Shown: positions 2,134 through 22,829 of the stretch, piece after piece
Layout of the letters: each line of letters opens with the position of its first letter
Numbering within the stretch: position 1 is the first letter of the stretch
Assembly: GCF_017104565.1 (NCBI RefSeq)
Contig: NZ_JAAGPD010000040.1
Location: forward strand, 1-64,000
Direction of reading: 5' to 3'
Origin: Paraburkholderia sp. Tr-20389
Lineage (GTDB): Bacteria; Pseudomonadota; Gammaproteobacteria; Burkholderiales; Burkholderiaceae
DNA length: 64,000 bases
The notes under the pieces: generated by a model
Told to the model about the DNA's origin: nothing
Database searches by the model: none
What the model saw: the letters and a program-made list of their open reading frames with translations, nothing else
Position numbers and translations under genes: made by a program

Positions 2134-2182
2134 CGCGTGGCCGGCTCTCGAAATAGCGTGAAGAAAAAGTCCGTGATCGCGG

Positions 2183-3136: not shown

Positions 3137-4260
3137 CGCATCACTCCATCGGGCGACGGCACGCGCGCGTCCGTCGAGCGCGCGCGGCCGCGCGGCTGGA
3201 CCTCGTCGAGCGTGCGTTCGTAGATCGACAGGTAGGCATCGCAGACGTGCTGCACGCCGAACGTGTCGAGATTGCGGCGGGCCCGCGCGCGCCAGGCCGC
3301 GCGCCCTGCCTCGTCGGTGAGCAGCCGCTCGAGTGCGGCGGCGAGCGCGGCGGGACTGGCGGGCGGCACCAGCAGGCCCGCTTCGCCGTCGTCGAGCATT
3401 TCCGGGTTGCCGTCCACTTGCGTCGCGACGATCGCGCAGCCCGCTTCACGCGCTTCGCACAGCACGAGGCCGCCCGGCTCGCGATGCGACGCGAGCACGA
3501 ACACGTCGGCTTCGGCCAGATGCGCGCGCGGATTCGCGACGAAGCCCGTGAAGTGCGCATGCTCCGCTATGCCGAGTTCGTGCGCGAGCGCTTCCATCGC
3601 CGCGCGGTCCGGACCGTCGCCGACGAGATACAGCGCCGCGCCCGGCAGCCGCTCGCGCACCTGCGCGAACGCGCGCAGCAGGTCCTGGATGCCCTTGCGT
3701 TCGTACATGCCCGCCACCGTGACGATGCTCGGCCGTGACAGCGCGGGCGACACCGGCATTGCCTCGGGCGCGAGACGCGGCGTGCCGATCGTGCCGTTGC
3801 GCACCACGCAGAGCCGTTCGCCGCGCACGCCGCGCTTCGCCATCGACGCGGCCACGGCCTTGCTGACGGCCACCACGCGATCGCCGACGCGCATCAGCGA
3901 CGCGCTCTTCTGGAATTCGTTGTGCACGGTCGTGATGAGCGCGTAGCGCCGCCTGATCGTGGCGAAGCGGCCGAGCAGCGCGCCCGTCATCATGTGCGCG
4001 TGCACGATGTCGGGATCGCAGCGCGCGATGAGACGGTTGAAGCCGAGCATCATCGACGGCGCGCGCCACGGCTTGCGCGACTGCGCCAGCGTCACATGCT
4101 TCACGCCATGCTGCGCGAGCAGCGGCTCGAAGGCGCCGCCCGACGACGCCACCGTCACGTCATGACCGGCTGCCGCCTGCGTGCATGCGAGGTCCACCAT
4201 CATGTTGACGATGCCGTTGCCGGTCTTGCGCACGTGGTTGGCGAGATGGACGATTTTCAT
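3133..4260 (-). CDS. GT4-family glycosyltransferase
   Basis: A 375-residue GT-B enzyme. The N-terminus (MKIVHLANHV) begins the acceptor domain, the ERKG loop near residue 187 begins the donor domain, and the EX7E motif EPGGLVLCE (E261, E269) is present. Its start overlaps the stop of the beta-propeller gene (ATGA, 4257-4260), and its stop overlaps the next GT2 start. It is part of one translationally coupled operon for repeat-unit assembly. The donor sugar is not predictable. Confidence 0.88.
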   Translation of the reverse strand: MKIVHLANHVRKTGNGIVNMMVDLACTQAAAGHDVTVASSGGAFEPLLAQHGVKHVTLAQSRKPWRAPSMMLGFNRLIARCDPDIVHAHMMTGALLGRFATIRRRYALITTVHNEFQKSASLMRVGDRVVAVSKAVAASMAKRGVRGERLCVVRNGTIGTPRLAPEAMPVSPALSRPSIVTVAGMYERKGIQDLLRAFAQVRERLPGAALYLVGDGPDRAAMEALAHELGIAEHAHFTGFVANPRAHLAEADVFVLASHREPGGLVLCEAREAGCAIVATQVDGNPEMLDDGEAGLLVPPASPAALAAALERLLTDEAGRAAWRARARRNLDTFGVQHVCDAYLSIYERTLDEVQPRGRARSTDARVPSPDGVMR

Positions 4261-6686: not shown

Positions 6687-6701
6687 GGCCGGTCTGCGCG
6701 C

Positions 6702-7868
6702 TCAGAACACATCGATCGCCTCGCGATAGACGCGCGCAACCTGCGCCGCCACCACGGGATGATCGAAGTTCATGCGTGCATACGTGCGGCACGCATCGGC
6801 GTCGGGCAGCACGCGCTCGCCGCGCAGCGCGTCGGCGATGCCGCTGCCGATCGCATGAAAGCCGCCCGAGGGGAGCACCAGATCGGGCGACAGCGGCGCC
6901 ACGGCTTCCGGCAAGCCACCCACGGGCGTCACCAGCACGGGCGTGCCCGCCGCAAGCGATTCGATCGTCGTGAGGCCGAAGCCTTCGAGTGCGACGGTCG
7001 GCACCACGGTCACATCGGCGGAGCCAAACCAGAGCGGCAGTTCGTCGTCGGGCACGAAGCCCGCGAGCTGCACATGGTTGTCGAGTCCGCGTGCGGAGAT
7101 ACGCGCGCGCAACTGCTGTTCGAGCGGCCCCTTGCCCGCGATCGTCATCAGCACATCGGGCACGGCAGCCTTCACGACGAACATCGCGTCGATCAGATCT
7201 TCGAGCCCCATGCGCGATACGAGACGCCGCACGCAAAACAGGGTCGGCCGGTCCTGCGGCAGTCCAAGCCGCTCGCGCGCTTCGCGCTTCGAGAGGCCCG
7301 TATCGAAACGCGCTACGTCGACGCAGCCCGGCACCACGCGGATGCGGTCTTCGCGCACGCCGTAGTCCTGATGCAGGATCTGGCCGAACGCGTGCGACAG
7401 CACGATATGACGCGTGCCGCCGCGATACACGAAGCGTTCGAGCGAATGGCGCAGCGCGCGCGAAATGCGCCCGCGCCCTTCCGAACCCGACTCGGCGGCC
7501 CACGGCCCGTGAAAGTGCACGACGCGCGGCACGCTGTGGAACACGCCTGCGGTCGGCGCGGTATAGAGCGCGAAATGCGTCGCGACGACATCGGGCATGC
7601 GCGCACGCCGCAGCCGGTTCGAATGCATGCGCGCACCGAGCAGCCGCGTGCCGAGCCGCGACTGCGCGGTCGCGAACGCCTGCACCGCGCCGTCCGACGC
7701 CTCGATCACGTTCGCACTGCCCGCGACCAGTCCGCGCACGTTGACGCCCTGCGCCGGCAGCGACTTGACGAGCGCCATGAACATGCGGTCCAGGCCGCCC
7801 GGCCGCTCGCCGAACCAGTGCATGCCGATTTGCAACGAATCGATCGAATCGCTCATGCCCGCACTCAT
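6702..7868 (-). CDS. GT4-family glycosyltransferase
   Basis: A 388-residue GT-B glycosyltransferase. The G-rich acceptor loop is GERPGGLDRM near residues 20-29, and the EX7E motif is EGFGLTTIE, followed by SLAAGTPVLVTPVGG. The long open frame upstream is a high-GC artefact. The ATG at 7868 overlaps the TGA of the preceding GT4 gene (ATGA), so the start is well supported; a second ATG four codons on is possible. One of four GT4 enzymes in this operon, which implies a repeat unit of at least four or five sugars. Confidence 0.87.
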   Translation of the reverse strand: MSAGMSDSIDSLQIGMHWFGERPGGLDRMFMALVKSLPAQGVNVRGLVAGSANVIEASDGAVQAFATAQSRLGTRLLGARMHSNRLRRARMPDVVATHFALYTAPTAGVFHSVPRVVHFHGPWAAESGSEGRGRISRALRHSLERFVYRGGTRHIVLSHAFGQILHQDYGVREDRIRVVPGCVDVARFDTGLSKREARERLGLPQDRPTLFCVRRLVSRMGLEDLIDAMFVVKAAVPDVLMTIAGKGPLEQQLRARISARGLDNHVQLAGFVPDDELPLWFGSADVTVVPTVALEGFGLTTIESLAAGTPVLVTPVGGLPEAVAPLSPDLVLPSGGFHAIGSGIADALRGERVLPDADACRTYARMNFDHPVVAAQVARVYREAIDVF

Positions 7869-9058
7869 GATTCGACCGACATCGGCGCATGCGCGGCCGG
7901 GTTCGCGGCGATGGCGCGGCGCACACGGACCTGCTCGTACAGCGACAGGTAGCGTTGCGCCATCGTCTGCCAGCCCAGCGTCGCCGCGAGTTCGCGCGCC
8001 GCCTGCCCCATCTTGCGCGCGCGCTCGCCGTCGCTCGCCAGTCGTCCGATCGCGTCCGCGAGACCGTGCGCGTCGTCGGGATGATCGAGCACGATGCCGC
8101 ACTCGGGTGGAATCACCTCGGCGCCGCCCGCCGTCTGCACCGTCACGACAGGCAGCGCGGCCGCGAGCGCTTCGAGCAGCACGAGGCTCATCGCTTCGTA
8201 GCGCGAAGGAAACACGAACGCATCGACGGAACGCATCAGCGCGGGCATGTCCTTCACCAGATCCGTGAAATGCACGCGCTCCGCGAGCCCGAGCGACGCG
8301 GCCAGCGCGGGATACGGACTGTTGCGCAGGATCCCCGCCACCACCAGATGCACATGCGGCGGCGTCAGCGCGAGCGCACGCAGCGCCGTGTCGAGATTCT
8401 TGCGCGCGACCCGCAGATCGCCCGCGAACAGCAGCAGAAACGGCGCCTGCGGCAAACCGAAACGCTCGCGCTGCGCTACGCCCGGCGCGAACTCGTCGAT
8501 ATCGACGCCGTTGTGAATGACCTGCAGACGTGCCGCATCGATGCCGAGCGCGCGCACTTCGCCGCGCACTTTCTCCGACACGGGCACGACCACGTCGGTG
8601 TGCTGGAACGCCCACTTCTCCAGATGCGCATTCAGACGCGTATAGCTCACCTGATACGCGTGGTACAGGTTGCGAAAGAAGCGGAACGGATAGAAACCGC
8701 AGCGATACCAGCCGTCGTGCACGAAATGCACGGTGTTGACGTCGGCGCGCGCCCACGCGATGAAGCCGTTCACATGCACGATGTCGAACTCGTCGCGGTG
8801 CGCGCGGATCCACATGCCGCTCTTCCATGCGAACTGCTGGTATTGCAGCAGACGCGTGGGCAGTCGGCCCGCTTCGATGCGAACGAAGCGCACGCCCGGA
8901 TGCTCCAGCAGTTCCTGCGCCGCGCGCGAAGCCAGCAGCGTGACCGTATGGCCCGCCGCCAACGCGGCGCGCACGATTTCGTAGTTGACGCGCCCCTGGC
9001 CGTCGTTCTTCGCGACGACATGCGTGACGATCAGGATCCGCATGCGTTTGCCGTTCAT
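7865..9058 (-). CDS. GT4-family glycosyltransferase
   Basis: A 397-residue GT-B glycosyltransferase beginning MNGKRMRILIV. Its start overlaps the stop of the Wzy-like gene and its stop overlaps the next GT4 start, both by ATGA. The donor-site motif reads EAMSLVLLE, followed by ALAAALPVVTVQTAGG. VSEKVRGE and a VIHNGVDIDEF segment before it match GT4 enzymes that use NDP-sugars. It acts in the cytoplasm at the inner membrane. Confidence 0.88.
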   Translation of the reverse strand: MNGKRMRILIVTHVVAKNDGQGRVNYEIVRAALAAGHTVTLLASRAAQELLEHPGVRFVRIEAGRLPTRLLQYQQFAWKSGMWIRAHRDEFDIVHVNGFIAWARADVNTVHFVHDGWYRCGFYPFRFFRNLYHAYQVSYTRLNAHLEKWAFQHTDVVVPVSEKVRGEVRALGIDAARLQVIHNGVDIDEFAPGVAQRERFGLPQAPFLLLFAGDLRVARKNLDTALRALALTPPHVHLVVAGILRNSPYPALAASLGLAERVHFTDLVKDMPALMRSVDAFVFPSRYEAMSLVLLEALAAALPVVTVQTAGGAEVIPPECGIVLDHPDDAHGLADAIGRLASDGERARKMGQAARELAATLGWQTMAQRYLSLYEQVRVRRAIAANPAAHAPMSVES

Positions 9059-10641
9059 GCCGGTCCCCTCGTGGCGTTGGCGGACGCCATCGCTGCGTCC
9101 TTCGCGCGCGCGATGGCCATGCCCGCCGGCTCGGGCTCGCGTGCCTTCGCCGCCGCGCGCTCCGCCGCAAGACGCGGCGCTTCGCGGGCGTAGCGCAGCC
9201 CGATCACGGGCATCAGCACGCCGATGAAGAAGAACATCCCGGACGTCGCCGTGAGCGTGTTGACGAACACCATCATCGCGAAGATCGCGATCGCCACGCC
9301 GACGCCGCAGATCGCGAAGCGGTCGTGCGGCCGCAATCGGCTCGCAAGAAACGCCCGCCACATCAGGATCGCGATACCGCTCGCGTACAGCAGCGTGCCC
9401 GGCCAGCCCATCACGAACGGCACCTCCATCAATCCGCTGTCGAACACGACGCTCAGCTGCGTGGTGTCGTCGTCGGAGAGCTTGGTGCCGAGACCCGTCG
9501 TGCCGAGGCCCTGCCCCGCGATATCGGTGAGCGCCACGGACAGGAACTCCTTGTAGAACTGCGCGCGCACCTGATAGCTGTTGTCGTTGCCGATGTCCTG
9601 CACGGTGTTGAAGCGCTTGAGCACGTTCTCCGACACCTGATCGATCATCATCACGGGCGCGCACAGCGCGGCGATCGCGACCACCGCGCCGACCAGCCGC
9701 AGACGGCTCTTGCCGTCGAGCATCGCGAGGGGATACACGAGACCGAGCGCGAGACCGCCCCAGCCGCTGCGCACCGACGTGAACATCAGCGCCGGAATCG
9801 CGAACACGCACATCAGGATACGCAGACGTCCGCCCGCCGCCAGCGACATCAGCAGCACGTACATGATGGTCACGGCGAACGGTCCCGACGAATTCATCGT
9901 ACTCATCACGCGCAGCCCGAACGGCACGGGGTGACCTTCCGATTCCATCTGCGACTGCAGCAGCCAGAACACATCCCATGGTTGCGGCTGCACGTACTGG
10001 ATCACGCCATAGACGCCCATCACGAGACCGCCGTACACGCAGGTCTTCAACAGGACGCGGTGATAGGCGGGATAGTCCTGCCACGTGACCACGAGGCGGA
10101 AGCCGATCAGCACGGGAAAGAGCCAGTTGACGAGCGTGTACAGCGCGGCGGCCGGCCCGACCTGCGCCATGCCGACGACGAACGAATAGAACAGCGCGAG
10201 GATGATCATCACGAGCGGCGCGGAGCGGCGCTGGCCGAGCGCGCTGACGTGCGTGATCAGCGAGAAGCCGGACAGCGCGACCGCGAGCATCGGCGCGATC
10301 ATCACCGTGCTCTTCGGATTGAACGAGCCGCTCATGAAGTCCGCGAGGCGGCGCACTTCGGGCGAAAGAAAGAACAGCCAGCATACGAAGCCGATGTAAT
10401 GCGCGGGTGAACGCCGGTAGAAATAGAACGCGACATAGAGCGCGCCGATCGGATAGAACACTTCGACGAGCCGCCCCTGATGCGCGATGATCAGCAGCAG
10501 CGTGATGCCGAACAGTGCGAGCGGCATGCGCAGCGGCCGGCGCAAGCCCGGCGGCGTGCCGGCTGCGTCGGCGCGAGCGTCGTCCGGCCGCGCGGCAGGC
10601 GCGTCCCGTGACGGCAATAGCGACGATGGTGTACTCAACAT
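9055..10641 (-). CDS. O-antigen ligase / Wzy-type polysaccharide polymerase
   Basis: A 528-residue inner-membrane protein with about ten to twelve hydrophobic segments and a large loop in the C-terminal half (around QDIGNDNSYQVRAQFYKE...GQGLGTTGLG) typical of the Wzy_C/O-antigen-ligase superfamily. In a Wzx/Wzy pathway this enzyme polymerises lipid-linked repeat units in the periplasm. It heads the leftward operon. The ATG at 10641 is preferred over a GTG at 10668 because a GGGGGC box lies about seven bases before it. The charged, Ala-rich tail (about the last 50 residues) is probably cytoplasmic. WaaL-type ligase activity cannot be excluded from sequence alone. Confidence 0.82.
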   Translation of the reverse strand: MLSTPSSLLPSRDAPAARPDDARADAAGTPPGLRRPLRMPLALFGITLLLIIAHQGRLVEVFYPIGALYVAFYFYRRSPAHYIGFVCWLFFLSPEVRRLADFMSGSFNPKSTVMIAPMLAVALSGFSLITHVSALGQRRSAPLVMIILALFYSFVVGMAQVGPAAALYTLVNWLFPVLIGFRLVVTWQDYPAYHRVLLKTCVYGGLVMGVYGVIQYVQPQPWDVFWLLQSQMESEGHPVPFGLRVMSTMNSSGPFAVTIMYVLLMSLAAGGRLRILMCVFAIPALMFTSVRSGWGGLALGLVYPLAMLDGKSRLRLVGAVVAIAALCAPVMMIDQVSENVLKRFNTVQDIGNDNSYQVRAQFYKEFLSVALTDIAGQGLGTTGLGTKLSDDDTTQLSVVFDSGLMEVPFVMGWPGTLLYASGIAILMWRAFLASRLRPHDRFAICGVGVAIAIFAMMVFVNTLTATSGMFFFIGVLMPVIGLRYAREAPRLAAERAAAKAREPEPAGMAIARAKDAAMASANATRGPA

Positions 10642-10683
10642 GCACTTGCCCCCGGCAAGAACAGCCACGCTAAATAACTGGCT

Positions 10684-10765: not shown

Positions 10766-11299
10766 TCAAAGTAATTCGTATGTATTCACCGCTGCGAGTC
10801 CGTCGCGCTCGCGGCGAGCGCCGCCCGCGAGCGCCTGGGCGCCGCGCTGGTGACGCGTGAGACCGATGAACGGCACGCCGTATTCGAGGTACGGCCCTTC
10901 CGTCTTGCGAAATCCGAACTGCTCGTAAAAGCTCTTCAGTCCGACGGGCGCCGTCACACGCACGACGCGCCCCGGCCAGCGCTCCGCGACCGCCTTCAGC
11001 ACCCGCTCGATCAGCATCTCCGCCGTGCCGTCGCCGCGCCGTGCGGGGCTCGTCAGCACCTTGTCGATCACTACTTCGGGATCTTCGAGATCGCCGGGCT
11101 GCACGCGTGCGTAGGCCATCACCGGCATCGGCCGCGACATGTCCTCGACGGCGAAGACATGCAGCGCCCGTTCATCGTGTCCGTCCGCATCGAGATAGAC
11201 GCGCGACTGTTCGACGACGAACACAGCGCTCCGCGCCCGCAGGATCAGATAGATCTCTCGCGCGGTCAGCTGCTCGAATTCCAGTGTTTTCCAGTTCAT
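10766..11299 (-). CDS. ElaA-like GNAT N-acetyltransferase
   Basis: A 177-residue GNAT protein resembling E. coli ElaA: an N-terminal RARSAVFVVEQ segment, an acetyl-CoA loop region around TSPARRGDGTAEMLIERVL, and the C-terminal YEQFGFRKTEGPYLEYGVPFI pattern. The ATG at 11299 is preceded by GGGGAGTG; a GTG five codons earlier is weaker. The substrate is unknown. It is divergent from the carrier-protein operon and upstream of the Wzy-like gene on the same strand, so it may be co-transcribed with the polysaccharide genes or be an unrelated neighbour. Confidence 0.8.
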   Translation of the reverse strand: MNWKTLEFEQLTAREIYLILRARSAVFVVEQSRVYLDADGHDERALHVFAVEDMSRPMPVMAYARVQPGDLEDPEVVIDKVLTSPARRGDGTAEMLIERVLKAVAERWPGRVVRVTAPVGLKSFYEQFGFRKTEGPYLEYGVPFIGLTRHQRGAQALAGGARRERDGLAAVNTYELL

Positions 11300-11559
11300 C
11301 ACCACTCCCCGCACAGTTCGTGAGCCGCGACTGCTTCATTGACATGGCGACACGTTACGTCCGCGACCGGTCTGTTTCCGTGCGGAATCGCACTGACGCT
11401 CTAGCATCGCAATCCGTTAAATGCGAACAACCGGAACGCGATGCGCGCTCCGGACCCGACCGGCTCCGCCTGCGGCTGAAGTGCCCAGAGCGGCGGCCGT
11501 GCATGGGGATCCAATGACGTGACCGCTTATGTGACAGCTCAACGAGGGGGCCGCTTTCC
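11300..11559. promoter_or_regulatory. Divergent regulatory region of the GNAT and carrier-protein genes
   Basis: A 260-base gap between divergent genes. A TTGACA sits at 11339-11344, but no good -10 box lies 16-18 bases downstream on the plus strand, so no exact promoter is called. GAGGGGG about ten bases before 11560 serves as the ribosome binding site of the carrier protein gene. No ORF in it is convincing. Confidence 0.4.
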
Positions 11560-11811
11560 ATGAAAACAGCACTGCGACGCATTCTTTCCGAATCGGCACG
11601 GCTCGATGTGCCGCCCGACACGCTTGCCGACGACGCAGACCTTTACGCGGCGGGACTGTCGTCGCTCGCGACCGTGCACCTGATGCTCGCGATCGAAGAC
11701 GAGTTCGGCATCGAGATTCCGGACCGGATGCTCACGCGCCGCCTGTTCTCGAGCATCGATTCGCTCGCGGCCGCCGTCACCGAACTGCAGCAGGCAAAGG
11801 CGGCAGCATGA
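11560..11811 (+). CDS. Aminoacyl-type acyl carrier protein
   Basis: An 83-residue carrier protein. The phosphopantetheine site is in AAGLSSLATV, with Ser35 as the expected attachment residue and Ser34 where AcpP-type proteins have Asp. The EDEFGIEIPDRML helix region is typical. Its close association with an amino acid:[carrier protein] ligase (13069) identifies it as the likely acceptor of an activated amino acid, as described for Bradyrhizobium and Agrobacterium homologues (Mocibob and colleagues). First gene of a coupled five-gene operon; its stop overlaps the next start by ATGA. A cognate phosphopantetheinyl transferase is not in the window. Confidence 0.9.
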   Translation: MKTALRRILSESARLDVPPDTLADDADLYAAGLSSLATVHLMLAIEDEFGIEIPDRMLTRRLFSSIDSLAAAVTELQQAKAAA

Positions 11812-13067
11812 ACGCGCCGCTCATGCAGGCGGCCGGCGCGGCGCCCGGCGCCGTGGAAACGGCGCCCCTGACCGCGATCGAACCCGAACCCGGCTGGCGC
11901 GCCGCCGCGCTGCGGGTCGCGCAGATCGCCGCACAACATGCGGACAGCGTCGACCAGCAAGCGCGTTTTCCCGTCGAAGCATTCGACGCGATCCGGCGCG
12001 AACGCCTGCTCTCGACGATGGTGCCCGCGCGCTTCGGCGGCGCGGGCCTGTCGCTCGCGGATGTCGCCGCTATCTGCGAGATCCTGGCGCAAGGCTGCGC
12101 GTCGACGGCGATGATCTACGCGATGCACCAGATCCAGGTCGCGTGTATCGAAGAGCACGGCAGCGAGGTCGCGTGGCATCGCGATCTGCTGGGCCAGCTC
12201 GTCGAAAACCAATGGCTGCTGGCGTCGGCTACATCTGAAGAAACGATCGGCGGCAACATGCGCACGAGCGCCTGCGCCGTCGAAATCGACGGTGACCTGT
12301 TCCGTATCGAGAAGCTCGCGCCGACCATTTCGTATGGCGCGCATGCCGACGGCATTCTCGTGACGGCGCGCCGCACGGCGGAATCGGCCGCTTCGGACCA
12401 GGTGATGATCGTCGCGCTGCGCGACCAGACGCAGCTGGAAAAGCGCGGCGGCTGGGACTCGATGGGCATGCGCGGAACCTGCAGCGAGGGCTTCCGTCTC
12501 GTCGCGACGGGTCTCGCCGTGCAGATTCTGCCGACGCCGTTCGCGCAGATCGCCGACCAGACCATGCTGCCCGTCTCGCATACGCTGTGGGCCGCCGTGT
12601 GGACGGGCATTGCCGCCGACGCGGTGAATCGCGCGAAGGCCTTCTTCCGCGCCCAGGCGCGCGGCAAGCCGGGCTTCGTGCCGCCCTCGGGCGTGCGTCT
12701 CGCCGAAGCCGTCGGCCTGCTGCAGATGATGCAGGCACGTCTTGCAATTGCGCTCGACGCCGCGCGCGCCGCGCATCAGGCGAAACTCGGCACCTGCCAG
12801 GCGGATGCGCCGCTCTCCGCCATGCTCAGCTTCGCGTCCGACATGAATACGCTGAAGACCAGCATTTCGATGACGGCGCTGCAGGTCGTGCAGGAAGTGC
12901 TGCTGATCTGCGGCATGGCGGGCTACAAGAACGGCACCGAGTACAGCGTCGGCCGGCATTTGCGCGACCTGCATTCCGCGCCGCTGATGATCAACAACGA
13001 CCGGATCGCGATGAACACGGCGAGCCTGCTGCTCGCGCAGCGTCCCGCCGCACCGGGGAGAGCCTGA
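11808..13067 (+). CDS. Acyl-CoA dehydrogenase family flavoprotein
   Basis: A 419-residue acyl-CoA dehydrogenase homologue. The N-terminal helical domain (about 25-150) includes RFGGAGLSLADVA, then come the middle beta domain and the C-terminal helical domain with GYKNGTEYSVGRHLRDLHSA. The usual C-terminal Y-E-G-T-N-E segment is replaced by MINNDRI, so the position of a catalytic base is unclear. Coupled by ATGA to the carrier protein gene, it probably acts on a carrier-bound acyl or aminoacyl group rather than in beta-oxidation; similar flavoenzymes oxidise aminoacyl groups on carrier proteins in natural-product pathways. That role is inferred from context only. Confidence 0.85.
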   Translation: MNAPLMQAAGAAPGAVETAPLTAIEPEPGWRAAALRVAQIAAQHADSVDQQARFPVEAFDAIRRERLLSTMVPARFGGAGLSLADVAAICEILAQGCASTAMIYAMHQIQVACIEEHGSEVAWHRDLLGQLVENQWLLASATSEETIGGNMRTSACAVEIDGDLFRIEKLAPTISYGAHADGILVTARRTAESAASDQVMIVALRDQTQLEKRGGWDSMGMRGTCSEGFRLVATGLAVQILPTPFAQIADQTMLPVSHTLWAAVWTGIAADAVNRAKAFFRAQARGKPGFVPPSGVRLAEAVGLLQMMQARLAIALDAARAAHQAKLGTCQADAPLSAMLSFASDMNTLKTSISMTALQVVQEVLLICGMAGYKNGTEYSVGRHLRDLHSAPLMINNDRIAMNTASLLLAQRPAAPGRA

Positions 13068-13068
13068 C

Positions 13069-14109
13069 ATGAACACGATGACCGAAACGGCTGCCCTCGC
13101 CGCAGCCGATGCCGCCGATGCCGGCACCGTGGGCGCGGACCCGACGCTGCGCGACCGCCTGCTGGAAAAAGGCATTCTGATCGACACGGGCGAAAACGGC
13201 CTGTATGGCCGCAGCCAGGTATTCGAGGATGTCGTCGATCGTCTGAATGCGGCGATCACGTACCTCGGCGCCGACCAGGATCCCGAAGTGCTGCGCTTTC
13301 CGCCCGCGATGCGCCGCACCGACTTCGAAGACAGCGAATATCTGAAGAACTTCCCGGACCTTGCAGGCACGATTCACTCGTTCTGCGGCAACGAGGCCGG
13401 GCAGCATCGCCTGTTGCGCTGTCTCGACGACGCGATGCAACGCAGCGACGACGACCGCGACACCGAATGGATGTCGCAGCAGGCGCCGACGCGCGTCGTG
13501 CTCACGCCGGCCGCGTGCTATCCGATCTATCCCGTGATGGCGCGGCGCGGACCGCTGCCCGCGAACGGCCGCACGATCGACGTGCTGTCGTATTGCTTCA
13601 GGCATGAGCCGTCGCTCGATCCCGCGCGCATGCAGATGTTCCGCCAGCGCGAATACGTGCGCCTCGGCGACCCCGAACAGGTGATGGCGTTCCGGCAGAT
13701 GTGGATCGAACGCGGCTCGCTGCTGGTATCACTGCTGCAACTGCCCGTCGACGTCGATCTCGCGAACGATCCGTTCTTCGGACGCGGCGGCAAGATCGTC
13801 GCGGACAGCCAGCGCGCGCAGGCGTTGAAATTCGAGCTGCTGATTCCCGTCGCGAATCCCGACAGCAAGACGGCCTGCCTGTCGTTCAACTATCACATGG
13901 ATCATTTCGGCGGCATCTGGAAGATCGAATGTGCAGACGGTTCCGTCGCGCATACGGGCTGCGTCGGTTTCGGCATGGAGCGCATCACGCTCGCCCTGTT
14001 CCGTCATCACGGTCTCGACGTGAACACATGGCCCGACGACGTCCGCGCGCTGCTGTGGGGCGACACGAAGGCACGCATCGCGCACGGTCTTGCAGGAGCC
14101 GGCGCATGA
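13069..14109 (+). CDS. Amino acid:[carrier protein] ligase, class II aaRS-like
   Basis: A 346-residue homologue of the catalytic core of atypical (archaeal-type) seryl-tRNA synthetase without a tRNA-binding domain. Class II motif 2 is CFRHEPSLDPARMQMFRQREY (176-196) and motif 3 is GFGMERITLAL (300-310). C150, E195 and C298 match the Cys-Glu-Cys zinc site that I recall for the B. japonicum enzyme, with constant spacing. Such enzymes adenylate a small amino acid, usually glycine or alanine, and load it on the phosphopantetheine of a dedicated carrier protein. The gene starts one base after the dehydrogenase stop and ends in an ATGA overlap with the DUF1839 gene. The amino acid used here cannot be read from sequence alone. 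Confidence 0.92.
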   Translation: MNTMTETAALAAADAADAGTVGADPTLRDRLLEKGILIDTGENGLYGRSQVFEDVVDRLNAAITYLGADQDPEVLRFPPAMRRTDFEDSEYLKNFPDLAGTIHSFCGNEAGQHRLLRCLDDAMQRSDDDRDTEWMSQQAPTRVVLTPAACYPIYPVMARRGPLPANGRTIDVLSYCFRHEPSLDPARMQMFRQREYVRLGDPEQVMAFRQMWIERGSLLVSLLQLPVDVDLANDPFFGRGGKIVADSQRAQALKFELLIPVANPDSKTACLSFNYHMDHFGGIWKIECADGSVAHTGCVGFGMERITLALFRHHGLDVNTWPDDVRALLWGDTKARIAHGLAGAGA

Positions 14110-15134
14110 ATCCACCCGTCACGTCCGTGCTGTCGACCGTCGAGGCGAGCGGCGAGGCGAACGCGTCCGAACCGCCGCCCATGCGCCAGCACGCTCCGCA
14201 TGCGCTGCATCAGGGCGACCGCGTGTGGCAGGAAACCAACTGCTACATCGACCTGTGGATCGAGCTGCTGCACGGCTTCGGCCTCGATCCGCGCGCCGCG
14301 TTCGCGTTCACGGTGACCCAGGACTTCGAAGGCGACCAGTTCACCTTCTTCAAGTTTCCGCTCGAAGACATCGAACGCCTGTACGGCACGCAGGTGCAGG
14401 AACTGGCCATCTACGATTCGCTCGAAGACCGCGTGTTCGCGCAGACGCAGCGCGGCCATACGGTGCTCGTCGAAGTGGACGGCTTTTATCTGCCGAATAC
14501 GCGCGCCACGTCGTATCGCCGCGAGCATCCGAAGACGACGGTCGGCATCGATCACATCGACCCGGCGGCGAGGCAGCTCGGCTACTTCCACAACACGGGC
14601 TATCACACGCTGGGCGGCGAAGACTACGACGGCGTGTTCCGCAAGCTGCCGCAGTTCGCCGGACAGCCCGAGTATCTGTTTCCGTATGTCGAATTCGCGA
14701 AACAGGTGCGGCCCGCGCTGGAAGGCACCGCGCTCGCGGAGGCATCGGCGGATCTGTTGCGCGCGCATCTGATGCGCCGGCCGTTGCGCAATCCCATCGG
14801 CGAATGGCGCAAGGCGTTTCCCGCGCATCTGGACACGCTGCTCGAACGCGGCGAGCCGTTCTTCCATCCGTACTCGTTCAACCTGATGCGGCAGCTCGGC
14901 GCGAATTTCGAGTTCCTGTCGAAGTATCTGGTCTGGCTGTCGGCGCAGGGTTTCGAGTTGCCCGGGACGCTTGCCGCTTCCGCGCAGAAGATCGCCTCGG
15001 AAGCGATGGTCATGCAGTTCCGGCTCGTGCGGGCCATGGCGCGACAGCGCCGCGATACCTGCGACGACTGCTTCGACGTGCTCGAAGACGCCTATGAGCA
15101 GACCATCCCGCCCCTCGCTTCGCTGATCCTCTAA
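14106..15134 (+). CDS. DUF1839 family protein, possible acyltransferase or cysteine hydrolase
   Basis: A 342-residue protein recognised as DUF1839, a regular neighbour of amino acid:[carrier protein] ligases. An NCY motif (Cys46), a GHTVLVEVDGFYLPNT segment (117-132) and an EHPKTTVGIDHID segment (140-152) resemble the Cys, Asp and His elements of the papain-like BtrH family, which moves an acyl group from a carrier protein to an amino sugar in butirosin synthesis. This is my inference from pattern, not an established assignment. It starts by ATGA overlap with the ligase. If right, it would pass the carrier-bound amino acid to a sugar or to another acceptor. Confidence 0.8.
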   Translation: MNPPVTSVLSTVEASGEANASEPPPMRQHAPHALHQGDRVWQETNCYIDLWIELLHGFGLDPRAAFAFTVTQDFEGDQFTFFKFPLEDIERLYGTQVQELAIYDSLEDRVFAQTQRGHTVLVEVDGFYLPNTRATSYRREHPKTTVGIDHIDPAARQLGYFHNTGYHTLGGEDYDGVFRKLPQFAGQPEYLFPYVEFAKQVRPALEGTALAEASADLLRAHLMRRPLRNPIGEWRKAFPAHLDTLLERGEPFFHPYSFNLMRQLGANFEFLSKYLVWLSAQGFELPGTLAASAQKIASEAMVMQFRLVRAMARQRRDTCDDCFDVLEDAYEQTIPPLASLIL

Positions 15135-15155
15135 CGGCCAGAAAACGGCCTGCGC

Positions 15156-15186
15156 GGCGACGTGCCCATCGACGGGCACGTCCGCC
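15156..15186 (+). other. Hairpin between DUF1839 and GH2 genes
   Basis: GGCGACGTGCCC pairs with GGGCACGTCCGCC around a six-base loop in the only sizeable gap (70 bases) of the five-gene operon. It has no T-run and may act as an RNA-stability element or a partial terminator that lowers GH2 expression. Confidence 0.4.
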
Positions 15187-15204
15187 GCTTCAACGGAACA
15201 CGCC

Positions 15205-17799
15205 GTGCGCACCCTGCCCAACGATCTCCCAGGACTCGCGTCCGAGTGCGCGAGCGCTTCATCTGCATCCGCGCCATTGGACGGTCCCGCAACCGCTGCC
15301 GACGTACCCCACGCATCCTGCTGGCCCGAGCCGATCACGGCGGGCTGGCAGTGCGTGACGACGAAGCCGGGCGCCTGCGCGACACCCGCCGGACTGCCCG
15401 CAAGCGGCTGGCTGCCCGCCGAGGTGCCGGGCACGATCGCGTCGGCCTGGCGCGTGGCAGGCAGGCTCGACATCGAGCATGCACCTGCTTTCGCGTTCGA
15501 CGACCACTGGTATCGCCTGCCCGTCACGGGCGACGGCGTGCAGCGTCTGCGCCTGCACGGGCTCGCGACGCTCGCCGAAGTCTGGCTCGACGACGCGCGT
15601 CTGCTGAACTCGGATTCGATGTTCGTCGCGCACGATCTCACGTTCGAACTGCACGGCGACGCGCTGCTCACGCTGTGCTTCCGCTCGCTTACGCCCGCAC
15701 TCGAAGCGCGACGCTCGCGGGCGCGCTGGCGGCCGCGCCTCGTCACGCCGCCGACCCTGCGCAACGTGCGCACCACCGTGCTCGGCTATATGCCGGGCTG
15801 GTGTCCGCAGGTGCAGCCCGTCGGCCCGTGGCGCCCGATCGAACGGCTCGGCGATGCGCCGCTCGCAATCGATCGCGTCGATATCCGTACACGGCTCGAC
15901 GGCGACGACGGCACCGTCACGCTGGCGCTCACGTTCGTGCATCCGCAGCCGGCCCATGCGCGCGCGGCGCTGCTGTGCGCCGGCGTGGAAGCGCCGCTGC
16001 AGCAGGCAGACGACGCGGCGCCGGCAAACACGTCGCCAGACGCGTCAAAACGCACGCTGACGGGCTCGCTGCGCATTCCGAAGGTATCGAGGTGGTGGCC
16101 GCATACGCACGGCACACCGGCGCTGCACGCGCTCGCCGTCGAAATCGACGGGACGCGCATCGAACTGGGCAAGGTCGGCTTCCGCACGCTCGACGTCACG
16201 CATGGCGACGACGGCGAAGGCTTCGCGCTGAACGTCAACGGCGTGCCCGTGTTCTGCCGCGGCGCATGCTGGACGAGTGCCGATCTCGTGAGCCTCGGCG
16301 GCACGCGCGAGCAGCTCGCCCACGCGTTCGCGCTCGCGCGTGATGCAGGAATGAACATGTTGCGCGTGGGCGGCACGATGGTGCTCGAATCCGACGCCTT
16401 CTATCAGCTCGCCGACGAATACGGCATCCTGATCTGGCAGGACTTCCCGTTCGCCAACTTCGACTACCCGAACGACGACGCCTTCGCCGCGACGGTGACG
16501 CGCGAAGCCGAACAGTTTCTCGCGCGAACGCGCCATGCCGCGTCGCTTGCCGTGCTGTGCGGCGGCAGCGAAATCGACCAGCAGGCGGCCATGTTCGGCT
16601 TGCCGCCCGCGCTGCGCGCGCAGCCGCTCTTCACCGAAAAGCTGCCCGCCGTCGTCGCGCGCGAACGGCCTGACGTGCCGTACGTCGCGCATTCGCCGAC
16701 GGGCAGCGCATGGCCCTTCTCGACGCGCACGGGCGTCACGCACTACTACGGCGTGGGCGCGTATCAGCGACCGCTCGACGACGTGCGCCGCTCGCAGGTG
16801 CGCTTCGCCGCGGAGTGCCTTGCGTTCGCCAACGTCCCCGACGACGCGACGCTGCACGACGCGCTGGGCACGATCCACGCGCACGATCCGCGCTGGAAAC
16901 GCGCCGTGCCGCGCGATCCCGGCGCGGGCTGGGACTTCGACGACGTGCGCGACCACTACCTGCGCACGCTCTACGGCATCGAGCCGGCGCGGCTGCGCTA
17001 CGAGGATCCGCCGCGCTATCTGGCGTTGTCGCGCGCCGTCGTCGCCGAACTGTTCACCGACGTGTTCGCCGAATGGCGGCGCGCCGGCTCGCCGTGCGGC
17101 GGCGGCATCGTCTGGCAGATGCAGGATCTGCGCGCTGGCGCGGGCTGGGGCGTGATCGACGCGACGGGACGGCCAAAGAGCGCGTGGCACGCGCTCGCGG
17201 GCGTGCTGCAGCCCGTGCAGGCCGTGATCACCGACGAAGGACTGAACGGCCTCGACGTGCATCTCATCAATGAGACAGACGGGACGCTGAACGCGCAGCT
17301 CGAGATTCTTTGCCTGCGCGACGGCGCCGTGAGTGTCGCGCAGGCGGCCCAGCCCGTCGAGCTGGCGGCGCGCAGCGTCCGGCGCCTTGCCGCCGCCGAC
17401 GTGCTCGGCCAGTTCTTCGACTTCACGTACGCGTACCGCTTCGGTCCGCGCGCGCATGACGTGACCATCGCGACGCTGCGCGACGCCGCGAGCGGCGCCG
17501 TGCTGTCCGAGGCTTTTCACCTGCCGGAGCGCAGCGCAGTGGAGCGCCACGATCTCGGCCTCAGCGCGCGGCCCGAAGCGACGCCGGACGGCTGGCAGCT
17601 CGTGATCGAGACACGGCGGTTCGCGCGCTACGTCCATATCGCCGATGCGCACTTCCGCGCGCAGCGCGACTGGTTCCATCTCGCGCCCGGCCGTCCCGTG
17701 ACCGTGCCGCTGATCCCGTTGCGCGCGGTTGATACAAACCGGACACCCGACGGCGAAGTTCGCGCGATCAATTCGACCGCAACGGTCTATTACCGCTAA
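15205..17799 (+). CDS. Glycoside hydrolase family 2 (beta-mannosidase-like)
   Basis: An 864-residue GH2 enzyme with an N-terminal sugar-binding jelly-roll (about 40-200), an Ig-like domain, a TIM barrel (about 340-680) and C-terminal beta domains. The acid/base Glu is E456 in CGGSE, where the family usually has NGNNE or similar, and the nucleophile is E537 in FAAECLAF. No signal peptide is visible, so it probably acts in the cytoplasm. Starts at GTG (ACGGA upstream); no ATG lies near. It follows DUF1839 and ends the operon at the 17844 terminator. It could trim or edit a sugar intermediate, or act as a glycosyl-transferring enzyme. Confidence 0.85.
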   Translation: MRTLPNDLPGLASECASASSASAPLDGPATAADVPHASCWPEPITAGWQCVTTKPGACATPAGLPASGWLPAEVPGTIASAWRVAGRLDIEHAPAFAFDDHWYRLPVTGDGVQRLRLHGLATLAEVWLDDARLLNSDSMFVAHDLTFELHGDALLTLCFRSLTPALEARRSRARWRPRLVTPPTLRNVRTTVLGYMPGWCPQVQPVGPWRPIERLGDAPLAIDRVDIRTRLDGDDGTVTLALTFVHPQPAHARAALLCAGVEAPLQQADDAAPANTSPDASKRTLTGSLRIPKVSRWWPHTHGTPALHALAVEIDGTRIELGKVGFRTLDVTHGDDGEGFALNVNGVPVFCRGACWTSADLVSLGGTREQLAHAFALARDAGMNMLRVGGTMVLESDAFYQLADEYGILIWQDFPFANFDYPNDDAFAATVTREAEQFLARTRHAASLAVLCGGSEIDQQAAMFGLPPALRAQPLFTEKLPAVVARERPDVPYVAHSPTGSAWPFSTRTGVTHYYGVGAYQRPLDDVRRSQVRFAAECLAFANVPDDATLHDALGTIHAHDPRWKRAVPRDPGAGWDFDDVRDHYLRTLYGIEPARLRYEDPPRYLALSRAVVAELFTDVFAEWRRAGSPCGGGIVWQMQDLRAGAGWGVIDATGRPKSAWHALAGVLQPVQAVITDEGLNGLDVHLINETDGTLNAQLEILCLRDGAVSVAQAAQPVELAARSVRRLAAADVLGQFFDFTYAYRFGPRAHDVTIATLRDAASGAVLSEAFHLPERSAVERHDLGLSARPEATPDGWQLVIETRRFARYVHIADAHFRAQRDWFHLAPGRPVTVPLIPLRAVDTNRTPDGEVRAINSTATVYYR

Positions 17800-17890: not shown

Positions 17891-18426
17891 GTCCGACACA
17901 TTCTCGCGGCGATTAACTCGGCTTCGACAAAAACCGATACTCCGTGCGGCAGCACACCAAAGCGATGGAACACATCTGAATCAAAACGTGCACATCGCAA
18001 AATCAATCGTTGAAAGGGGTTTTCGGCGTGTTTCAGGGTTTCGGGCACATGGGCAGAAAATCGTGATCCGCACAAAATCAACCACTTGGATAATGGTTCT
18101 TCATATTGTTTCTCGAATAGTCTGAAAAATCGCGTTGTGCATATTTGAAACAAAATCAGTCGTTTTGCCGTGTTGTGTAAATGGGCGCGCGACGCTGCGC
18201 CGCACCAGCACTCATTTTGCGGCCGATTGGCACAGTCCTCGCTAAATAACCGCCGCAGCGATAGCCACCGTGGATGAGAGAACTTGAACAAGCGCATCCA
18301 CGCTGGTTTGACGGGGCCGGTCTGTACGCTTTTTGCCGCGAGCCACGCGGCAAGACATAGAAGGCGCAGCGCCGGGTTAAAAAATAAGGGGGTCGTGCAG
18401 TGCACGACTTCATGCGAGGACCGATC
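17891..18426 (+). promoter_or_regulatory. Long regulatory region with CAAAATCA repeats
   Basis: A 536-base AT-richer gap before the Crp/Fnr gene. Three direct repeats of CAAAATCA followed by a C-rich or CGTT end start at 17998, 18073 and 18151, spaced 75 and 78 bases. They could be binding sites for an activator acting on the sigma54-like element at 18227. No ORF in it is convincing. Confidence 0.5.
18227..18243 (+). promoter_or_regulatory. Sigma54-type -24/-12 promoter
   Basis: TTGGCAC-AGTCC-TCGCT places GG and GC exactly ten bases apart, as in the consensus TGGCAC-N5-TTGC. Only one base of the -12 element differs. It lies 184 bases upstream of the Crp/Fnr-type gene and would make the Crp/WcaJ/Wza/Wzc block RpoN-dependent. 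The Bep polysaccharide locus of B. cenocepacia is known to be RpoN-linked, which makes this plausible. Confidence 0.6.
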
Positions 18427-19158
18427 ATGCTTACGCTTCAATCCGACCTGCACGGCAATCATTTGCTCGGCGCACTGCCCTCCCATGAGTGGCAGGCTCT
18501 TGCTCCTCACCTCGAACTCGTTCATCTGCGCACGGAACAGCTGCTGTGCGATTCGGGCCAACGGATCCATCACGTCTACTTTCCGACCACGGCGATCATC
18601 TCGATGCTGTCGACGATGGAAGACGGCGGCTCGGTCGAGATCGCCGCAGTCGGCCGCGAAGGCATGACGGGCGTGCCCGTCCTCACGGGCGGCGAAACCA
18701 TGCCGAACCGCGTGCAGGTGCAATGCTCCGGCTTCGCGTACCGCATGTCGGCCCAGGCGCTGCGCCAGCAATTCGCGCGTTCGGACTTCCTGCGCCGCCT
18801 GATGCTGCTCTACATGCACGCGCTGCTCACGCAGGTCGCGCAGACGGCCGCCTGCAACCGTCATCATTCGTTGAACAAGCAACTGTGCCGCTGGCTGCTG
18901 ATCGAAGTCGACCGCGTCGCGTCGGATGATCTGTCCGTCACGCAACAGCTGATCGCCGACATGCTCGGCGTGCGCCGCGAAGGCATCACGGAAGCGGCAG
19001 GCAAGCTGCACAACGACGGCCTCATTCATCACAGCCGCGGCCATATCCGCGTGCTGGACCGCAAAGGTCTCGAAGCCCGCGCCTGCGAATGCTACGGCCT
19101 CGTGAAACGCGAGTTCGACCGTCTTCTGCCGCGTCTGCAACAAACGGAAACCGCGTGA
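18427..19158 (+). CDS. Crp/Fnr-family transcriptional regulator
   Basis: A 243-residue regulator with an N-terminal cyclic-nucleotide-binding-like beta roll (about 25-125) and a C-terminal winged HTH (about 150-220; VTQQLIADMLGVRREGITEAAGKL is the recognition region). It lacks the Cys cluster of Fnr and an obvious cAMP-binding Arg pattern, so the ligand, if any, is unknown; c-di-GMP-responsive relatives control polysaccharide in Burkholderia. The ATG at 18427 follows a GCGAGGA box by six bases; an in-frame GTG at 18400 has no such box. It is 14 bases upstream of the sugar transferase gene and probably regulates this locus. Confidence 0.85.
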   Translation: MLTLQSDLHGNHLLGALPSHEWQALAPHLELVHLRTEQLLCDSGQRIHHVYFPTTAIISMLSTMEDGGSVEIAAVGREGMTGVPVLTGGETMPNRVQVQCSGFAYRMSAQALRQQFARSDFLRRLMLLYMHALLTQVAQTAACNRHHSLNKQLCRWLLIEVDRVASDDLSVTQQLIADMLGVRREGITEAAGKLHNDGLIHHSRGHIRVLDRKGLEARACECYGLVKREFDRLLPRLQQTETA

Positions 19159-19172
19159 GCTAAGGCTCCATC

Positions 19173-20570
19173 ATGTTCAAGAACGTTGCGCGTTGCCTCG
19201 ACGCGATCTTCGTGATTGCGGGCGCTCTGATCGCTCACTGGATGCGCTTTCCGAACGGCCAGGAACTCGCGGACAACGAACGGTTGCTGATCGCCTTCAA
19301 CTGCGTGCTCGTGCTGCTGCTGTTCCCCGGCTTCGGGGTCTATCAGACGTGGCGCGGCAAATCGTTGTCCGACATGCTCGGGCGCGTGACGACGGCGTGG
19401 CTCGTCGTCGTCGCGACGGGACTCGTGATGTCGTTCACGCTGCACCGGATGGACGCCGTGTCGCGCCTGTGGTTCGGCTACTCGACGCTGATCTCGGGTG
19501 TCCTGATCGTCTCGACCAAGCTCGCCGCGCATCTCGCGCTGCGCAGCGCGCGCCGTCGCGGGCTCAACTTCCGTACGGTGGCGATCGTCGGCGCGCCGGG
19601 CTTCTCGCGCATGCTGCTCGCCCATCTCGAACGCGAGCCGCAGGCGGGCTTCAAGCCGGTGTGCCTGTTCGACACGCATGCGGAGTTGTCCGAGACCTTC
19701 GACGAGCCGCAAGAGGCGCGCGTGGGCCGCTTTCCCGTGCTCACGGACATCGAGGCGTTTGCCGCGAAGGTGCGCGAAGAACACATCAACGAAGTGTGGC
19801 TGGCGCTGCCGCTGTCGGAAGAGCACACCATTTACCGCTTCAAGCGCGCGTTCCAGCACGACTTCGTGAACCTGCGTTTCATTCCCGACGTGCGCAGCCT
19901 CTCGCTGTTCAACCACGCGATCGTCGACGTGATCGGTCTTTCGACGATCAGTCTGAACGCCACGCCGATTTCGCCCGTGCAGATGTGGCCGAAGCTGATC
20001 TTCGACCGGCTGTTCGCGCTTGTCGCACTGGTTGCGCTGTCGCCCGTGTTCGCCGCGCTGGCCGTGGCGATCAAGCTCAGCTCGCCGGGGCCCGTGTTCT
20101 TCACGCAGGAGCGCAAGGGCATCGACGGGCAGCCGTTTCGCATCTACAAGTTCCGCTCGATGACCGTGCACCGCGAAGAACACGGCAAGGTGACGCCCGC
20201 CGCGCGCGTCGATGCGCGTGTGACGAAAGTCGGCGCGTTCATCCGACGCACGAGTCTCGACGAGCTGCCGCAGTTCTTCAACGTGCTGCTCGGACAGATG
20301 TCGGTGGTCGGTCCGCGGCCGCATGCCGTCGAACACGACGACCTCTACAAGGATCTCGTGTACGGCTACATGTATCGCTATCGCATCAAGCCGGGCATCA
20401 CGGGCTGGGCACAGGTGAACGGATACCGCGGCACCACGACGAAAGTCGAAAAGATGGAAACGCGGGTGAAGTTCGATCTGTTCTATATCCACAACTGGTC
20501 GTTCTGCTTCGACATGAGGATCGTGCTGATCACGATCTTCAAGGGCTTTGTCGGCCGCAACGCATATTGA
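19173..20570 (+). CDS. Undecaprenyl-phosphate glucose/galactose phosphotransferase (WcaJ-like)
   Basis: A 465-residue polyisoprenyl-phosphate hexose-1-phosphate transferase. The N-terminal half is membrane-embedded with a Rossmann-like segment ([13 protein letters not shown]). The C-terminal bacterial sugar transferase domain has a hydrophobic segment ([21 protein letters not shown]), then [24 protein letters not shown] and SVVGPRP. It loads the first sugar phosphate onto undecaprenyl phosphate at the inner membrane, so it starts repeat-unit synthesis. Similar enzymes include WcaJ and the Burkholderia BceB. It is probably co-transcribed with the Crp-type gene and the downstream GT2. Confidence 0.93.
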
Positions 20571-21565: not shown

Positions 21566-22804
21566 ATGAATATCAAAAGACTGCTCGCCTTGCTGGCGAC
21601 GACAGCGCTATGTGCGTGTTCGATAGCGCCGGGGCCGTATCTCGACACCAAGCGTCTCGACCAGACGCAGCAGGCCACCATGTCCGCGCCGACCTACGCG
21701 GTGCGGCCCATCGATGTGTCATGGTTTCAGGAGCAGCGCGCGGCGGCCGTGCCGTCGGTGTGCCAGCTGACGTGTCTCACGCCGACACTGCGCAGCCACC
21801 CTCCCGAATACCGCGTCGGCATCGGCGACCAGCTCGCGATCATCGTCTGGGACCATCCGGAACTGACGGGCAGTCCGCTCGCCGCGGGCGGCACCGCCCC
21901 CTTGCCGACCCTGCAAGGCAACACGGGCACCGGCCCGAACGGCGTGCCCATGACGGGCAGCACCGCACCCAGCGCCGCGCCGGCGACAGGCGGCGCGTCG
22001 GCGGGCGGCGCCGATAGCGGCCTGGTCGTGCGGGTCGCGAACGACGGCACCATCTTTTTCCCGCGCGTCGGACGCGTCAAGGTTGCGAGCATGCCCGGCA
22101 CGCCGAACATGACTGCACAGGAAATCCAGCGTCTCATCGCAAAGGGGCTGGCCAAGACGATCCGCGATCCGCAGGTCGACGTGCGCGTGGCCGGCTTCAA
22201 CAGCCAGTCGATCCAGGTCACGGGCAACGTGCGCGCGCCGACCCCGGAAGCGCTGACCGACCAGCCCCTCAGCGTGCTCGACGCAATCAACCGCGCGGGC
22301 GGCGCGCTGGCCGACGCCGATCTGCAGAACGTCGGCGTGACGCGCGACGGCAAGCGCTACACCATCGACGTCGCCGCACTGCTCGAAACGGGCGACCCGA
22401 ACCAGAACGTGATTCTCAAGGACGGCGACTTCATCGACGTGCCGGACCGCTCGAACAGCCGCGTCTTCGTGCTCGGCGAAGTCGGCAAGCCCACCTCGCT
22501 GCCGATGAACCGCGGCCGCCTCACGCTCGCCGATGCGATCACCGGCGCGAACAGCCTCGACATCGCAACGGGCGACCCGCGCTCCATCTACGTGATCCGC
22601 GGCGCGGACAAGTCGCTCGATCCGAGCATCTTCCGGCTCGACATGACGCAGGTCGACGCGATCATGCTGATGACGAAATTCGACCTGCAGCCGAAGGACG
22701 TCGTGTACGTGCAGGTGGCGAATTCCGCCCGCTTCAACCGCACGCTCGCGCAGGTTCTGCCTGCCCTGCAAACGCTGTTTTTCACCAGAGAACTGGCTCG
22801 CTGA
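21566..22804 (+). CDS. Outer-membrane polysaccharide export lipoprotein (Wza family)
   Basis: A 412-residue secreted lipoprotein. The signal peptide ends in the lipobox LCAC, with Cys18 as the lipidated residue. The Poly_export domain begins at YRVGIGDQLAIIVWDHPE, and two SLBB-type repeats follow (IQVTGNVRAPTPEALTDQ and VFVLGEVGKPTSLPMNRG). A Gly/Ala/Pro/Thr-rich insert of about 45 residues interrupts the export domain. It forms the outer-membrane channel and works with the Wzc kinase. The ATG at 21566 with AAAGGA upstream was chosen over the longer frame because only it gives a signal peptide. Confidence 0.92.
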   Translation: MNIKRLLALLATTALCACSIAPGPYLDTKRLDQTQQATMSAPTYAVRPIDVSWFQEQRAAAVPSVCQLTCLTPTLRSHPPEYRVGIGDQLAIIVWDHPELTGSPLAAGGTAPLPTLQGNTGTGPNGVPMTGSTAPSAAPATGGASAGGADSGLVVRVANDGTIFFPRVGRVKVASMPGTPNMTAQEIQRLIAKGLAKTIRDPQVDVRVAGFNSQSIQVTGNVRAPTPEALTDQPLSVLDAINRAGGALADADLQNVGVTRDGKRYTIDVAALLETGDPNQNVILKDGDFIDVPDRSNSRVFVLGEVGKPTSLPMNRGRLTLADAITGANSLDIATGDPRSIYVIRGADKSLDPSIFRLDMTQVDAIMLMTKFDLQPKDVVYVQVANSARFNRTLAQVLPALQTLFFTRELAR

Positions 22805-22829
22805 CGCACGCCTCGCGACGGAGTTGACA

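Follow-up and report, generated by a model that had tools for sequence, protein, structure and literature searches.

A conserved carrier-protein cassette in a polysaccharide locus of Paraburkholderia sp. Tr-20389 and its predicted role in sugar aminoacylation

Within the first 64,000 nucleotides of contig NZ_JAAGPD010000040.1 of Paraburkholderia sp. Tr-20389 (this whole stretch is called the window below), five plus-strand genes lie between two blocks of polysaccharide genes. They encode a carrier protein (CP), a flavoprotein resembling acyl-CoA dehydrogenases, an amino acid:[carrier protein] ligase, a protein of the DUF1839 family and an enzyme of glycoside hydrolase family 2 (GH2). Three of the four junctions overlap or nearly do so, and all reading frames are open (Table 1). 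A first-pass annotation of the window had described these genes as one coupled operon between polysaccharide blocks, which is confirmed here and recurs in related genomes, where 94 of 128 loci are complete. Ligases of this kind have been known since 2010, and to our knowledge no use for them has been agreed upon. Taking the predicted steps of the ligase, the flavoprotein, DUF1839 and the GH2 enzyme together, we consider it rather probable that the cassette makes an aminoacylated sugar.

Table 1. Coordinates of the cassette genes and their neighbours in the window
Feature	Coordinates	Strand	Remarks
Carrier protein (aminoacyl-CP)	11560..11811	+	PF00550, NF005480
Flavoprotein resembling acyl-CoA dehydrogenases, classical catalytic Glu absent	11808..13067	+	PF02771; ATGA overlap with the CP gene
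Amino acid:[carrier protein] ligase (SerRS-like, class II)	13069..14109	+	NF005479
DUF1839, predicted papain-like CP-dependent aminoacyl transferase	14106..15134	+	PF08893, E 5e-135; ATGA overlap with the ligase gene
GH2 glycosidase	15205..17799	+	GH2 domains; 70-base gap after DUF1839; GTG start, precise start uncertain
GNAT acetyltransferase (PRK10314-like)	10766..11314	-	Left border of the conserved slot
Crp-family regulator	18400..19158	+	Right border of the conserved slot
WcaJ undecaprenyl-phosphate glucose phosphotransferase	19173..20570	+	TIGR03023 over cut-off; polysaccharide context
Wza and Wzc export genes	21566..25214	+	Polysaccharide context
Left polysaccharide block: four glycosyltransferases of family 4 (GT4), one of family 2 (GT2), NHL protein, Wzy-like protein	976..10668	-	

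The distribution of the cassette was surveyed in 398 genomes sampled from the whole phylum, and stretches of up to 10 kb on each side were fetched around matches. DUF1839 was found in 16/398 genomes and the ligase above its cut-off in 28/398 (44 at E ≤ 0.001); the ligase is present in all 16 DUF1839 genomes, and 12 genomes have an over-cut-off ligase without DUF1839. In total, 128 loci, 20 of them fetched for the ligase alone, were scored with the window proteins using phmmer; the resulting sequence counts are not fully independent, since two loci (L107 and L061) apparently lie on one contig. DUF1839 is present in 108 of these loci and all five genes are present in 94, of which 92 show identical order and strand, so the arrangement occurs more than by chance. 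All five genes were also found in each of the 19 DUF1839-bearing loci taken by inference as alphaproteobacterial. The cassette further occurs in 59 plasmid records, including megaplasmids, and the five genes stand in order in every annotated record (9/9) among the 12 opened. In 12 loci without DUF1839, the flavoprotein gene always adjoins the ligase gene (12/12), a weak CP match is seen in 9/12 and no GH2 match was found; since these loci keep the flavoprotein beside the ligase, CP, ligase and flavoprotein look like a core, and DUF1839 with GH2 like a second module. Eight diverged ligase loci (L158-L165), which belong to the 17 below-cut-off ligase matches, showed no match to CP, flavoprotein, DUF1839 or GH2 and were left aside.

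The phosphopantetheine serine of the CP (S35, 11662-11664) is kept in 108/108 sequences, and the nearest solved structures are 4h2w_C and 2jq4; the DltC model also matches the CP, but far under its cut-off. The ligase scores 518.3 bits against NF005479 (cut-off 357, E 6e-156) and matches the solved 4h2w/3mey at E 4.7e-86, has no Pfam match at E ≤ 0.001 and gives a single match in the genome from which the window comes. Its residues C150, E195 and C298, kept in 109/109, are presumably zinc ligands, in analogy to the solved relatives. Loading of amino acids onto CPs has been published for homologues. The usual substrate is glycine. Glycine, alanine and serine are named for such ligases in a table excerpted from PMC9437257.

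The flavoprotein matches PF02771 and stays below the cut-off of every NCBIfam equivalog; its structural model (mean predicted local distance difference test score 87.9) has the acyl-CoA dehydrogenase fold. The catalytic glutamate is absent: position 395 (codon 12990-12992) is isoleucine here and isoleucine or valine in 108/108 sequences. At the second glutamate position, for which the alignment was judged by eye, S, A, T or C occurs at 257, followed by H258 in 108/108. We take these two sites to be the positions of MCAD Glu376 and IVD Glu254. The best match, the dehydrogenase 7p98, also lacks a glutamate at the first position, where it has threonine, so dehydrogenation by the flavoprotein is still conceivable. 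Comparison with flavin monooxygenases of group D (DszC, nitrososynthase) favoured neither these nor the dehydrogenases as the nearer group. A flavin reductase gene (PF01613) lies near the cassette or its partner hydrolase (see below) at L223:6638-7621 and in 14 Burkholderiaceae loci, and its product could possibly serve as the reductase of the flavoprotein.

In a Foldseek search, the structural model of DUF1839 aligned across almost its full length with CcbD, CtaG and AziU2/U3, and with no other PDB entry at E ≤ 0.001. CcbD is an amide-forming enzyme that condenses carrier-bound proline with an amino sugar, and CtaG forms an amide as well. C46 (codon 14241-14243) starts helix 46-57 of the model, at the nucleophile position of CcbD and LmbD, and is found in 103 of 112 sequences of a family alignment restricted to matches above 250 bits and 280 amino acids, the rest having been dropped uncounted. 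The further candidate active-site residues are T145 (14538-14540) and H162 (14589-14591). Because the fold matches that of CcbD, DUF1839 can be read as an amino acid-to-sugar transferase; fold, conservation and gene linkage together suggest that it most likely shifts a CP-bound amino acid to a sugar via Cys46. A link of DUF1839 to BtrH_N was also considered and not counted, as one of 33 members was touched, at E 0.14. According to an excerpt of PMC10318531, DUF1839 is among the papain-like families and has a permuted C-T/S-H triad; a role in cell-wall glycan processing, acyl-CoA-dependent, is guessed there.

Ten DUF1839 copies lack C46, corresponding to three changes on a single midpoint-rooted FastTree tree of 114 DUF1839 sequences read with branch support disregarded. 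The first change affects L080, L101, L109 and L173, copies that lie within the cassette in Cupriavidus-type genomes. Each of these genomes has a second copy that bears C46, located in the same stretch for L080, L101 and L173 and, for the genome of L109, at L100. The second change comprises five Caballeronia copies outside cassettes, four of which (L072, L077, L078, L210) occupy the polysaccharide slot, flanked by its GNAT and Crp genes; the fifth (L073) shows no such neighbours. The third is L059, where the cassette is incomplete. Genome searches located a cassette with a C46-bearing DUF1839 elsewhere in the genome for G406, G407, G408 and G410. In the six copies outside complete cassettes (L072, L073, L077, L078, L210 and L059), the nucleophilic cysteine is gone and both invariant histidines are kept; such copies perhaps have a non-catalytic role. 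A strict rule by which C46 occurs only alongside a ligase was discarded, as it is broken by G399, G400, G403 and G404 in a genome comparison that leaves out the genome of L059.

In the GH2 enzyme, E456 (16570-16572) and E537 (16813-16815) align with glutamates of 2vjx, which we take to be its catalytic pair, and are conserved in 96/96 sequences. E456 forms an SE motif with S455, which replaces the usual asparagine in 95/96, and G389 occupies the position of a tryptophan of the 2vjx mannosidase (78 G, 13 S and 5 P among the 96). In the excerpted text of PMC12243196, SE for NE and glycine for the mannosidase tryptophan are given as features of subfamily GH2_14, the SE motif being read as room for substituted substrates and the serine for asparagine in GH2_16 as compatible with C2 amination. 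The same excerpts report that two GH2_14 members, BmGH2_14 and SdGH2_14, act slowly on para-nitrophenyl-beta-D-galactoside (pNP-beta-D-galactoside) and show no detectable activity on mannobiose and mannotriose, that BmGH2_14 is weakly active on lacto-N-tetraose and beta-1,6-galactobiose, and that the natural substrate was not found. Based on the two sequence marks rather than a CAZy model, the enzyme of the cassette is likely GH2_14-like. A beta-mannosidase function, suggested by the best solved relatives, was rejected in view of the SE motif and G389. No signal peptide was seen on the GH2 protein upon inspection by eye.

The relationship of the cassette to polysaccharide genes differs between lineages. 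For 71 of 80 Burkholderiaceae loci, the fetched stretch contains one or more polysaccharide-gene matches, and both border genes of the slot (GNAT and Crp) are present in 66/80; in 11 of these 66 the cassette is incomplete, including L080, which is merely cut by the locus end. Eight further Burkholderiaceae loci stand outside this set and the next but within the 128 (L100, L101, L107, L109, L111, L166, L173, L175); seven of them have polysaccharide matches, and L166 has none. In other lineages, comprising 19 loci taken as alphaproteobacterial (8 plasmids, 11 genomes) and one Mycetohabitans, polysaccharide genes were recognised near at least 6/20 loci (L102, L103, L104, L110, L112, L171). Since neighbourhood counts by phmmer with window proteins miss diverged glycosyltransferases, they were supplemented by Pfam scans of chosen genes, genome searches and deposited annotation. 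At least 5 of 11 other-class genomes (G043, G253, G262, G307, G382) have GT4 or Wzx no further than 10 kb from DUF1839, counting the GT4 genome matches listed, which reach down to E ~5.6e-18; one contig (G191) begins 3.5 kb before DUF1839. From the GT4/Wzx density about 8% would be expected (P ~0.001, or 0.007 with two congeners counted once). The link to polysaccharide genes is thus enriched and recurrent in several settings, yet not needed by the cassette. The placement put forward in the first-pass annotation, which had named operons lying mostly far from polysaccharide loci as its refutation, is therefore not contradicted in the main Burkholderiaceae set, whereas outside it the cassettes apparently do lie mostly apart from such loci.

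A sixth partner is a tandem hydrolase of about 600 residues, built from two alpha/beta hydrolase units; it is related, with scores below cut-off, to two hydrolases associated with exosortase A, TIGR03101 and TIGR03100. It occurs in the fetched stretch of 14/20 other-lineage loci and 18/80 Burkholderiaceae loci; in the genome of the window it lies on another contig (C55). A Wzx-like domain shares its reading frame in two Rhizobium-type genomes (L102:14173-17499, L104:2357-5668), and in L103 the tandem hydrolase and a Wzx-like gene are adjacent. At L212 (contig C89 of G405), hydrolase, CP, flavoprotein and ligase genes are present, with no DUF1839 or GH2 match downstream of them.

A pathway can be proposed from these findings. 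The ligase would activate a small amino acid, probably glycine, and load it onto the pantetheine arm of the CP, as its homologues suggest. The flavoprotein might then oxidise the CP-bound amino acid, by monooxygenation or dehydrogenation. Cys46 of DUF1839 would take over the group and hand it on to a sugar, where by analogy with CcbD an amino group is the most likely acceptor, and the GH2_14-like enzyme may finally cleave or transfer a beta-galactoside-like bond of the substituted sugar. The transfer of a CP-bound amino acid to a sugar, already proposed in the first-pass annotation, is likely, being supported by the CcbD fold of DUF1839 and by GH2 marks that fit a substituted-sugar pocket. In the genome of the window, the product is most likely incorporated into the surface polysaccharide whose genes surround the cassette; in other genomes, this product may be used for a different glycoconjugate. 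More tentatively, it is possible that Burkholderiaceae and plant-associated Alphaproteobacteria share an aminoacyl-sugar cassette that is mobile and self-contained, in which bound glycine would be oxidised and coupled to the amino sugar of a lipid-linked glycan by a permuted-triad papain-like enzyme, while the GH2_14 enzyme and the flippase-linked tandem hydrolase would handle the glycan. If true, such a mobile cassette would bring a lincosamide-like condensation to cell-surface polymers and give the ligases a physiological role.

Several observations weigh against the formation of an aminoacylated sugar for a surface polymer. A profile of 43 DUF1839 sequences finds no CcbD, CtaG or AziU in the PDB at E ≤ 10, so the link between DUF1839 and CcbD is by fold only, and the triad of DUF1839 is permuted (C46, T/S at 145, H162) compared with the Cys-His-Glu of CcbD. 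G399, G400, G403 and G404 keep C46 with no ligase match (T145 being lost in G399), and G405 has a ligase while its sole DUF1839 match lacks C46. Biosynthetic operons do not usually include a glycosidase. Among the window proteins scanned, which do not represent every frame, none was recognised as belonging to amino-sugar biosynthesis, and the acceptor amine is therefore not accounted for. Finally, no polysaccharide gene was recognised, among the matches listed, near 14/20 other-lineage loci, whose flanks were partly scanned with Pfam.

This last observation would also suit a cassette whose product is an aminoacyl-glycoside that is small and diffusible, such as a signal or an antibiotic-like compound, and is unrelated to any polymer, with polysaccharide loci as a frequent landing site. 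We regard this as a doubtful alternative, though one with several points in its favour: the fold relatives of DUF1839 make antibiotics, several cassettes are found on plasmids, one of them, in Rhizobium gallicum, directly after nif genes, and the slot persists with an incomplete cassette in 10/80 Burkholderiaceae loci when L080 is left out. It is, however, at odds with the excess of GT4 or Wzx genes over the expectation in other-class genomes, with the fusion of the partner hydrolase to a Wzx-like domain and with the kinship, below cut-off, of that hydrolase to exosortase-A-system hydrolases. Esterification of a sugar hydroxyl, comparable to the D-alanyl groups of teichoic acids or the glycyl groups of lipopolysaccharide (LPS), with GH2 as a recycling enzyme only, would need no amino-sugar gene, none having been recognised among the scanned proteins of the window, and glycine esters in LPS are known; since CcbD yields an amide, as does CtaG, we find it unlikely. 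The excerpts of PMC12243196, which link the GH2_16 serine to C2 amination and the GH2_14 SE motif to substituted substrates, also speak against the ester. That DUF1839 is a peptidase or amidase that strips off an acyl or aminoacyl group, for instance as a thioesterase that edits the CP, seems quite improbable to us, even with a papain-like fold and with the papain-like listing and glycan-processing guess excerpted from PMC10318531.

Regarding the surroundings of the cassette, the left flank also holds an FkbM-type methyltransferase gene, as revealed by the window protein scans, and its Wzy-like protein scores 31.0 bits, just under the cut-off of 31.7. Between its glycosyltransferase genes, a protein of 809 residues with a single NHL repeat match (4257-6686, minus strand) is conserved in many loci of Paraburkholderia, the closest relatives among those found. 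The right flank runs from the Crp regulator through WcaJ, GT2, Wza, Wzc and two GT4 to a methyltransferase. Beyond about 29 kb follow genes for ribose-5-phosphate isomerase, an amidase, a SpoU-type methylase and an RNase-R-type protein, and then a phage-type integrase (PF00589, 35100-36329), from which the G+C content drops rightwards from ~65% to ~57%; this region right of the housekeeping genes is probably an integrated element. Upstream of the cassette in L104 (13052-15162), the only locus covered by the domain scan, lie a LysRS-like class II synthetase and a radical SAM protein, with related genes in L102 and L108; we take the two to be EpmA-like and EpmB-like, respectively.

Among known systems, lincosamide synthetase (LmbC, LmbN-CP, LmbD; CcbC, CcbZ-CP, CcbD) uses a nonribosomal peptide synthetase adenylation domain, whereas the cassette has a ligase resembling aminoacyl-tRNA synthetases. 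Compared with the lincosamide module, the cassette adds a flavoprotein and a GH2 enzyme, has a permuted triad and Gram-negative hosts and shows no sequence-level similarity. With the Bll0957 type it has in common the ligase family (4h2w/3mey), the kind of CP and an acyl-CoA dehydrogenase gene; the 12 Bll0957-type genomes in our sample are, in contrast, without DUF1839 and gave no GH2 match in the fetched stretch. In Bradyrhizobium, bll0957 and bll0958 (acyl-CoA dehydrogenase) are tabulated together as raised in a phaR mutant, according to an excerpt of PMC10888616. D-alanylation by Dlt is similar in that an aminoacyl carrier protein feeds a surface polymer, but the cassette differs in its synthetase-like ligase and in the fold of its transferase; no DltB or DltD family was found in the scanned proteins of either flank of the cassette. 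The GH2 enzyme shares SE for NE and glycine for tryptophan with BmGH2_14 and SdGH2_14, and the excerpted GH2_14 descriptions in PMC12243196 contain no mention of a CP or DUF1839; the link offers a possible reason why the natural substrate of this subfamily has escaped detection.

The first-pass annotation regarded the pathway as not yet described, which does not hold, as its central proposal has been in print since 2010. In PMC2922099, a note added in proof linked the ligase to an acyl carrier protein, a redox enzyme, a conserved open reading frame (Atu2574), a glycosidase and liposaccharide genes, and predicted an amide bond with a sugar amine at the cell surface, Atu2574 being the amide-forming enzyme. 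Among the matches listed, no experiment on the pathway was found in the literature on the ligase. Gene set and chemistry of that note are as here, but its text gave no fold for the reading frame, no glycosidase subfamily and no placement counts. New compared with print are thus the fold-level identity of the predicted transfer step, the finding that its nucleophile has been lost in nature, a likely subfamily for the glycosidase and the placement survey. The fold of DUF1839 supplies a concrete chemical step and a candidate nucleophile for the ligase pathway; if this is true, condensation of a CP-bound amino acid with an amino sugar would be a general tool of glycoconjugate synthesis rather than a peculiarity of the lincosamides.

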